Part shown: positions 27,871-36,110 of the stretch, one piece after another | Numbering within the stretch: the first letter of the stretch is position 1 | Layout of the letters: the number at the start of each line of letters is the position of its first letter | DNA from: Bacteroidota bacterium | Lineage (GTDB): Bacteria > Bacteroidota > Bacteroidia > Palsa-965 | Direction of reading: 5' to 3' | DNA: 36,158 nt | Assembly: GCA_003153435.1 (NCBI GenBank) | Contig: PLYR01000079.1 | Location: forward strand, 1 to 36,158 | Program-made: the position numbers and the translations under genes | Notes under the pieces: generated by a model | What the model saw: only the letters and a program-made list of their open reading frames with translations | What the model was told of the DNA's origin: nothing | The model's database searches: none

Positions 27871-27949
27871 TCCGCCTACGTCACGCAAAATGCGTGATTA
27901 TGGCGGACAAAGCCCGCCTACGTCACGCCAATGGCGTGACTTCGGCGGA
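27871..27949 (+). repeat. Two tandem 42-bp hairpin units before tRNA-Leu
   Basis: Two copies start with CCGCCTACGTCACGC at 27872 and 27914 and end GGCGGACAAAG. Each folds: CCGCC pairs with GGCGG, and TCACGC with GCGTGA. The second copy replaces an A-T pair by C-G at the inner end of the stem and a G-T by a G-C pair, so the fold is preserved while the sequence changes. The second unit ends 6 nt before the tRNA, whose first bases GCGGA resemble the repeat end. They look like REP-type elements. Confidence 0.75.
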
Positions 27950-27954
27950 CAAAG

Positions 27955-33463: not shown

Positions 33464-33781
33464 ATGCTTTTTATGAAACTCATTTCAACCAATATCAATC
33501 AGATCCGATCATTTTGCATTCAGCATCATGTGAAGTCTCTGTTCGCATTTGGGTCAATTACCCGAAATGCATTGAAGTCAGGCAGCGATATTGATCTTCT
33601 GGTTGATATTGATTGCAGTGATCCTCTTGTTTATTCAGACAATTACTTTGCCCTCAAATTTCATCTGGAACATTTGTTAAAAAGACAAATTGACCTCCTG
33701 GAGAAAAGAGCAGTTAAAAACCGGTATCTGAAAAAAAATATTGAAGAGACCAAAGTGCTGGTTTATGGAAAAGGAAATTAA
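33464..33781 (+). CDS. mntA: MntA-like nucleotidyltransferase antitoxin
   Basis: The 105-residue product is a minimal nucleotidyltransferase with the exact GSX10DXD motif (G30, S31, D42, D44) in FGSITRNALKSGSDIDLLVD. In HepT-MntA systems this protein transfers AMP to a tyrosine of the HEPN toxin and neutralises it. The ATG at 33473 (MKLIST) is an equally good start. The stop overlaps the start of the HEPN gene by 17 nt, which is usual for the pair. The motif is intact, so the antitoxin looks functional although its toxin gene is broken. Confidence 0.88.
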   Translation: MLFMKLISTNINQIRSFCIQHHVKSLFAFGSITRNALKSGSDIDLLVDIDCSDPLVYSDNYFALKFHLEHLLKRQIDLLEKRAVKNRYLKKNIEETKVLVYGKGN

Positions 33782-34102
33782 AGTCTGGCTTTCCGATATA
33801 AAACAAGCTGTTTCTGAAATAAAACAATTCCTTCCCGCGAGAAAAAGCTTTCTTCTGTTTCAAAAAGATCTAAAAACAAAAGGGCTGTTGAACGGAATAT
33901 TGAAATTATTGGTGAGGCCATCAAACGAATTATAAGCTTAAGGCCAGATATTCAAATAACGAATTCCCGTAAAATTGTGGATACACGGAATCGAATCTCA
34001 CATGGTTATGACAGTGTTTCAGAAGACATTCTCTGGTCCATTGTCATCAAGGATCTACCTGAGCTTGAAAAAGAAGTCAACCGACTTCTGAAAAAAGGGT
34101 GA
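33765..34102 (+). pseudogene. hepT: HepT-like HEPN toxin, frameshifted
   Basis: Codons 1-39 (MEKEIKVWLSDIKQAVSEIK ... DLKTK) are in one frame. From about 33881 the sequence continues in the -1 frame as RAVERNIEIIGEAIKRII ... and ends at the TGA 34100-34102. Adding one A to the AAAA run at 33878-33881 restores a 112-residue HEPN (DUF86-type) protein with the complete RX4HXY motif (R75, H80, Y82 in RNRISHGY). As read, the gene gives a 56-residue truncated product without the active site. It could be a true inactivation, a sequencing error in the homopolymer, or less likely a frameshifted product. Confidence 0.85.
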
Positions 34103-34233: not shown

Positions 34234-34342
34234 TGCCGTCAAGTGGTTAGCTACTTTGTCGTATTATTTCCTAATCTTGGGAATCAATGCCAGCTGATTT
34301 CTGTTTCTCTCCTTACCGATCCCGACCAGAAATCGACTTTCT

Positions 34343-35035
34343 AAGTTATGAAGTGAACTGTCTAAATTAATGTACCACTTTCGGAAGCTTCCGTACCGAT
34401 TTCTTAAGCTTAGGTATGACAAATGGAAGCTTCCAAACTACCTGCGTAAGCTTCTGCACCGTTTTCTTAAGCTTAAGTATTGCGAATGGAAGCTTCCAAA
34501 CTACCTGCGTAAGCTTCTGTACCGTTTTCTTAAGCTTAAGTATTGCGAATGGAAGCCTCCAAATTACTTTCGTAAGCTTCCATACCATTTTCTTAAGCTT
34601 ACGCATTACAAATGGAAGCTTGCAAACTACTTTCTGAAGCTTCCATACCATTTTCTTAAGCTTATGCATGACCAATGGAAGCTTACGAAATGGGTACAGA
34701 AGCTTACGGAGGCAAAATCATAACTTACAAAGAGCGTTCCATAACTTATCGAGTTAGGTTCTTCGTTTAAACAAACACTTCTTCAGTTACTGAAATTGTT
34801 CATTTTGCTTAAGAAGGGTGTAAACGAGCAAATAGATTTACTTTCTTAAATAGTGCTGACAATCTTTGAGTTTCCGCATCAGCTTCATCAAGTTAAGAAA
34901 GCACTTCATAAGCGGAGAGAAACAATATTTCAGCTTCTCTTTTCACTTCATTAATTTCAGGAAGCACTCTTTAAGCTAATACATCTGATACTTCAACTTA
35001 AGAAAGTCCTTCCTGACGTTAAATACTTTCCCTTC
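34343..35035. repeat. Extended, decayed 21-bp-register region around the AAGCTT array
   Basis: Counting in steps of 21 from the array, the hexamers are AAGTTA (34343) and AAATTA (34364) before it. After it come TAACTT (34721), TAACTT (34742), CAGTTA (34784), TTGCTT (34805), GAGTTT (34868), CAAGTT (34889), AAGCGG (34910), CAGCTT (34931), TAATTT (34952), AAGCTA (34973), CAACTT (34994) and GACGTT (35015). A few positions (34763, 34826, 34847) do not fit. Between them, similar blocks such as GCACTTCAT and GCACTCTTT recur. This looks like an older, eroded part of the same array. Confidence 0.6.
34385..34705. repeat. Array of AAGCTT palindromes every 21 bp (16 units)
   Basis: AAGCTT occurs at 34385, 34406, 34427, 34448, 34469, 34490, 34511, 34532, 34574, 34595, 34616, 34637, 34658, 34679 and 34700, and AAGCCT at 34553: sixteen positions with a spacing of exactly 21 bp. 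The spacers form three types in rotation (ending in TGCGT-like, TTCTT and AATGG), which makes a 63-bp higher-order repeat; 34427-34489 and 34490-34552 differ at one base. Several units extend to 12-bp palindromes (CTTAAGCTTAAG, TGGAAGCTTCCA). The hexamer is much more conserved than the spacers. Function unknown. Confidence 0.93.
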
Positions 35036-35533: not shown

Positions 35534-36030
35534 ACACCAATCTGCTATTTGATTTTATCGTTGACAAAACCACAAAAACGATATTCGTAAACAAAGAATT
35601 TGATGCCGACCTTTCACTGGTATGGGATGCTTTTACCAAACAAGAATATCTTGACCAATGGTGGGCTCCGAAACCCTGGCAATCAAAAACAAAGCACATG
35701 GATTTCAAAGTCGGAGGACGAAGATTTTATGCTATGGTAAGCCCCGAAGGACAAGAACATTGGTCTTTGGAGCAATATTCTTCCATCAGTCCAAAAACCA
35801 ATTACAAAATGTTGAATTCGTTTGCAGACAAGGATGAAAACCCTGAAGTGCCAGGTTCTGACTGGGATTTAACTTTCAGCGAAAAGGATGGAGTTACAAA
35901 AGTTAGTATTACAATTAAAAATGATTCACTCGCCCGTATGGAAAAGATGATCGAAATGGGATTCCAGGGTGGGTTTACAATGACTTTGAACTACCTCGAG
36001 AAAATGTTGAGCGGAAAGAGGAAAGAGTAG
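35530..36030 (+). CDS. SRPBCC (AHSA1-like) ligand-binding domain protein
   Basis: The 166-residue product has the START/AHSA1 pattern: [31 protein letters not shown], the [18 protein letters not shown] block, and the C-terminal helix [20 protein letters not shown]. The fold encloses a hydrophobic pocket. In ArsR-SRPBCC pairs the protein is thought to bind or process a small ligand, but the ligand is rarely known. The four-base overlap with the regulator gene shows coupling. The stop codon lies at the first bases of repeat copy B. Confidence 0.9.
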
Positions 36031-36110
36031 AGCGGAGAGCGGAGAAACAGCATTTTTCGCTCTTCGCTCTGTTTATCCTTTAGGGTTTCTGTTTCTGAGT
36101 TGAATATGTC
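36029..36110. repeat. Hairpin-bearing dispersed repeat, copy B
   Basis: The copy begins AGAGCGGAGAGCG (36029-36041), pairs with CGCTCTTCGCTCT (36058-36070) with one wobble, and ends with TTTCTGTTTCTGAGTTGAAT and ATGTC. The start and end blocks match copy A at 28052-28133, and both are 82 bp long, although the middle differs. It starts in the stop codon of the SRPBCC gene and may end its transcript. Confidence 0.7.

Follow-up and report, generated by a model that had tools for sequence, protein, structure and literature searches.

A 21-bp tandem array in a Bacteroidota genome as the probable minisatellite core of an old, dispersed, MITE-like intergenic element

The window, by which we mean the whole 36,158-nucleotide stretch of DNA analysed here (contig PLYR01000079.1 of assembly GCA_003153435.1), carries a series of AAGCTT hexamers whose neighbors encode nucleotidyltransferase, ArsR-type HTH, AHSA1, and hexapeptide proteins. 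A nucleotidyltransferase-domain gene followed by a putative, apparently frameshifted HepT-like partner gene occupies 33464 to 34102. As originally predicted, sixteen slots lie between 34385 and 34705 with every step exactly 21 bp and no slip, fifteen of them AAGCTT and one AAGCCT (34553). Three AAGCTT hexamers at 21-bp spacing occur at 27 places in the genome from which the window comes (G000) versus none for a reversed control pattern, so the series cannot be due to chance. This series forms the core of a non-coding element of approximately 650 to 750 bp, located on the minus strand at approximately 34316 to 35028 and made up of the following features.

34316 to 34384, minus strand: tail of more decayed 21-mers (GTTCACTTCGTGACTTAGAAAGTTGGTTTCTGG), common to copies C13 and C51
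34385 to 34705, minus strand: core array of 16 slots of 21 bp, with a 63-bp higher-order repeat
Core array, minus-strand reading: monomer type A, AAGAAAANGGTACAG
Core array, minus-strand reading: monomer type C, ACGAAAGTAGTTTGG
Core array, minus-strand reading: monomer type B, CCATTTGTCATACGT
34706 to 35028, minus strand: leader, composed of decayed 42-bp (2 x 21) repeats; the other copies have homologous leaders; boundaries approximate

The top tandem period of the array is 63 bp, or 3 x 21 (TRF, 34385 to 34684, score 397), because each 15-bp spacer belongs to one of three types, A, C, and B, that recur; type B is inverted in orientation relative to types A and C. The spacers had been described as differing from one another; they are indeed not identical, but they recur and so build a 63-bp higher-order repeat. 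A CRISPR array was rejected on the same grounds, as its spacers would have to be unique. Decayed 21-bp periodicity continues past 34705, through the leader, to about 35028. An iteron or partition (centromere) array was also rejected, since the neighbors in the window include no replication or partition gene; this agrees with the earlier remark that rep, par, and phage genes are absent nearby, and a search of plasmid and phage collections gave no match. In an Rfam scan, the best matches fell far under the gathering scores and nothing stood above chance. Elsewhere in the window, two copies of an intergenic repeat of 42 bp (2 x 21), itself containing an inverted repeat (GTCACGCAAAAGGCGTGAC), lie at 27872 to 27954.

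The array is not a unique site, as at least six dispersed copies of the element are present in G000, on contigs C136 (the window), C13, C51, C33, C59, and C119. The array is common to all six, as is a leader of roughly 300 bp, in which the repeat is clearest in C119 (GAAGTGAAAATGGAAGCTGAGAAAGTGCTTCTTTCAGTTAAT), and three of them (the window, C13, and C51) also have the tail. Pairwise identity is 73 to 82% over alignable stretches and 62 to 75% in the leader alone. Every copy is intergenic, with unrelated neighbors and with flanking genes that are divergent, convergent, or tandem, and the contexts of the other copies differ from that in the window. The copies differ in size overwhelmingly by 21, 42, 63, or 84 bp; the few 1-bp slips are mostly within the leader. 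The KL reading frame of the repeat is interrupted by stop codons in C13, C33, and C119, which excludes a heptad-repeat protein open in all copies and shows that the element in G000 is non-coding. Around the six copies, the search for inverted-repeat ends gave only weak, AT-rich candidates, and neither these nor any target duplication was convincing. Low-complexity intergenic repeats of the GAGCGGAGA/GAAACAG type were seen at 36000 to 36065 of the window and at L162:1124-1256, one of them directly adjoining a copy of the element.

The original prediction suggested that the palindrome itself is constrained. Over 93 monomers, 7.7% of hexamer cells were changed versus 17.9% of spacer cells, a difference that would suit a palindromic protein-binding site. 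It is AGCTT that accounts for the low rate (4.5%), however, and the dyad partners are unequal: position 1 of the hexamer was changed in 22 of the 93 monomers and position 6 in only 6. The spacer blocks GAAA and GGTA of type A are conserved equally to AGCTT. In the genome of a sister species of the same genus (G001, public record JABDAO01), where the unit is GGGGAACATGTCGGG followed by the hexamer, the hexamer is one of the parts of the unit that vary most (AAGCTT, AACCTT, AAACTA, AACCCT, and GAGGTT), whereas most of the spacer is fixed; relatives of this kind, with no constraint on the hexamer, are what the prediction itself had named as counting against it. The conserved feature is the 21-bp register and not the AAGCTT palindrome, and the exact phasing that was first noticed is, being nearly slip-free, the most conserved property both here and across the genus. 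Folding z-scores were set aside, as they were calculated against plain shuffles and their values mostly reflect repetitiveness.

A search of 84,980 genomes for four AAGCTT hexamers at this spacing yielded, among the matches listed, chiefly uniform 21-bp repeats distributed over many phyla; because AAGCTT was the search motif, the few whose spacers diverge are ascertained by it. These include L122:4566-4797, L124:4332-4440, and L077:4653-4912 (Bacteroidetes and Planctomycetota), where AAGCTT or AAAGCTTT recurs at 21 bp between strongly divergent spacers.

The 21-bp period extends to arrays of other sequence within the genus. In a sample of approximately 398 kb from G001, consisting of contigs drawn regardless of repeats, although in some of them arrays at other positions were known beforehand, the top lag was 21, 42, or 63 in 28 of 31 tandem arrays; the corresponding count in 382 kb of G000, including the window, was 6 of 10. 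Several arrays with such multiples of 21 (21n arrays) were found in G002, and a single 14/21 array in 180 kb of G003, a fourth member of the genus. Samples of G004, G006, and 20 further genomes contained few or no 21n arrays, their non-coding arrays being more often of 14 bp. The units of 21n arrays are mostly unrelated to each other, although a few families recur, and the arrays are mostly intergenic with stops in most frames. Across 42 arrays (18.6 kb), chosen for their 21n period, there was essentially no slip of the lag to neighboring values. Dyad symmetry was in excess in 14 of 33 array profiles at p<0.05, the arrays not all being independent; the excess may stem from inverted monomers or from quasi-palindrome correction. 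In G001, at L202 to L221 and L302 to L316, an intergenic tandem array of 21, 42, or 63 bp occurs about every 13 kb, with many unrelated units. The arrays of one G001 family (GGGAACATGTC; L024, L025, L216, L221, L304, L308, and others) read in one frame as GEHVGKL-like heptads, in which V and L are spaced like the a/d positions of a coiled coil. In G014, of the same class, alternate 21-mers of a 42-bp array (L248:299-614) form a near-perfect 20-bp palindrome (CATTCGCACATGTGCGAATG) with AT-rich 21-mers in between. A scan of the phylum turned up CAGTNNN heptamers in many genomes, along with some true 21-mers; CAGTNNN arrays, in which a conserved tetramer is followed by a variable triplet, are abundant in Bacteroidota (e.g., G084, G109, G112, G147, G166, G189, G274, and G293). 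We found nothing specific to 21-bp intergenic repeats of Bacteroidota in the openly accessible literature.

In G001, many arrays are bounded by 22-bp inverted repeats (left end GGGTCAACGTCATTTTCCGGGG; right end, reversed, GGGTCAATGTCAAAAGCTGGGG), and 8-bp target duplications are perfect at four loci and match at 6 to 7 of 8 positions at others. The four perfect duplications are as follows.

L203 (G001): target duplication GAGAATAG, 8/8
L211 (G001): target duplication ATAATTTG, 8/8
L025 (G001): target duplication TTGAGTGT, 8/8
L304 (G001): target duplication ATTTTTTT, 8/8

Such ends number 26 in G001 versus none in nine other genomes, and many arrays of G001 sit within MITE-like elements bearing GGGTCAANGTCA ends. 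The short elements at L303 (346 bp) and L306 (364 bp) have the same leader and tail as the long element at L025 (870 bp), which differs from them by an array of approximately 29 units. Ends of this type also enclose arrays of unrelated units (L203, L303, and L315), and two further end types, flanked by 10-bp direct repeats, bracket arrays at L217 and L221; many G001 arrays lack all of these end types. The lengths of 10 G001 elements are non-uniform modulo 21 (p=0.004). In a search for an autonomous partner in G001, none of the open reading frames around three of the ends looked transposase-like when judged by reading.

We consider it probable (roughly 0.7) that the array in the window forms the minisatellite core of an intergenic element that is old, dispersed, and non-autonomous (MITE-like). 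Copies would have spread between genes by transposition or copying, after which each may have grown or shrunk by whole 21-bp units, through slippage or unequal exchange, with amplification probably proceeding at 21 bp first and in 42- and 63-bp higher-order blocks later. Change by whole units would keep the register exact while the units themselves diverge, and AAGCTT would then be common to all monomer types because the ancestral unit already had it, and not because of selection on a protein site. The element in G000 appears to be old and decaying. The lack of convincing ends or target duplications at its six copies is a point against this reading; because the ends in G000 are not recognisable, we infer from the sister species that this family moved as the G001 elements did. 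We likewise infer that the 21-bp period was inherited. Passive amplification and inheritance do not obviously account for the finding that many units of unrelated sequence, under three or more end types, have one period, 21, and a MITE-like minisatellite does not predict the excess of dyad symmetry among arrays.

The fixed period is what an alternative based on helical phasing would explain. With 10.5 bp to a helical turn, no whole number of bases below 21 makes up whole turns, and a two-turn register could have been selected for a nucleoid-type or oligomerising protein, or for DNA architecture, with units on the same face and their exact sequence of minor importance. Phasing is a possible account of the fixed period across unrelated units, given that 21, 42, and 63 dominate, that slip is nearly absent from 18.6 kb of arrays, and that dyad symmetry is in excess. 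However, neither intrinsic curvature nor 10.5-bp roll periodicity exceeded that of permuted units, a clear period-10.5 spectral excess is absent across families, and the 21n arrays of the samples were restricted to this genus. A common origin in a small number of MITE families would yield an equal period as well. We regard selection for phasing at this array as doubtful. We are just as hesitant about its genus-level form, in which several unrelated MITE types would carry 21-bp, often dyad-symmetric arrays as phased platforms for a candidate nucleoid or regulatory protein, the two-turn period being selected and the sequence not.

Descent of the arrays from a gene that encoded a coiled-coil protein with heptad repeats (21 bp being 7 codons, with V and L at a/d) is very improbable. 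The GGGAACATGTC family, the main one in G001, has a stop-free frame over 280 units with changes by codon position of 251/123/369, the minus frame in G000 reads KLKKTVQKLTKVVWKL, and a search of the array translation against Pfam gave a sub-threshold match to the SlyX coiled coil and nothing else. The equivalent frame has stops in several G000 copies, however; a second frame of the G001 family, antisense, is equally stop-free, no ATG start was seen on reading the open frames in G001, several other 21-bp arrays are stopped in all six frames, and in G000 the Leu codon CTT hardly varies at its third base. Very improbable, in spite of the slower change in the hexamer and the recurrence of AAGCTT at 21 bp between divergent spacers elsewhere, is that AAGCTT is the palindromic operator of one cooperative DNA-binding protein with phased copies, as position 1 changes freely and its dyad partner does not, spacer blocks match AGCTT in conservation, the hexamer of G001 ranks with the most variable parts of its unit, and no rep, par, or regulator gene is consistently adjacent. 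The case is a warning that a diverged minisatellite with repeated short palindromes can mimic an operator array.

To our knowledge, minisatellite-bearing MITEs have rarely been described in bacteria. Extrapolation from our samples suggests that the genus holds dozens to perhaps hundreds of arrays, with unrelated sequences, several end types, and a period fixed at 21 bp; it is thus a natural data set on what sets the unit length of a minisatellite, whether the mechanism that generates it, descent from a single ancestor, or selection on helical phase.

At plasmid origins, iteron arrays consist of in-phase direct repeats near two helical turns, a description that also suits the present array; unlike them, the element does not lie beside rep or par, has many chromosomal copies, and shows no single conserved site. 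Heptanucleotide repeats (the cyanobacterial STRR type and CAGTNNN of Bacteroidota) are likewise intergenic, abundant, and in strict register, with a conserved core plus variable letters, and 21 is 3 x 7; however, they are simple tandem heptamers, and no 7-bp sub-periodicity was found when it was sought in the 21-bp units. The closest known system is BrickBuilt of Porphyromonas gingivalis, a 23-nt minisatellite within a MITE that has a leader, a tail, and inverted-repeat ends and is present in 19 intergenic copies, its ends being approximately 12 nt and its target duplication short (PMC4596501). BrickBuilt proper is not matched, as the unit here is 21 bp and the G001 ends (GGGTCAACGTCA) differ from those of BrickBuilt (GAGACCTTTGCA). 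The six G000 copies resemble it as dispersed intergenic copies with a shared leader and/or tail around an array of short direct tandem repeats without spacers, which varies in repeat number and contains no transposase; inverted-repeat ends and target duplications are shared with it by the G001 elements. Where BrickBuilt is one family with a 23-nt unit, the genus studied here has unrelated units of 21 bp and at least three end types, G001 has 22-bp ends and an 8-bp duplication, and the window's own family is without recognisable ends. We call the present element a new variant of the BrickBuilt kind.
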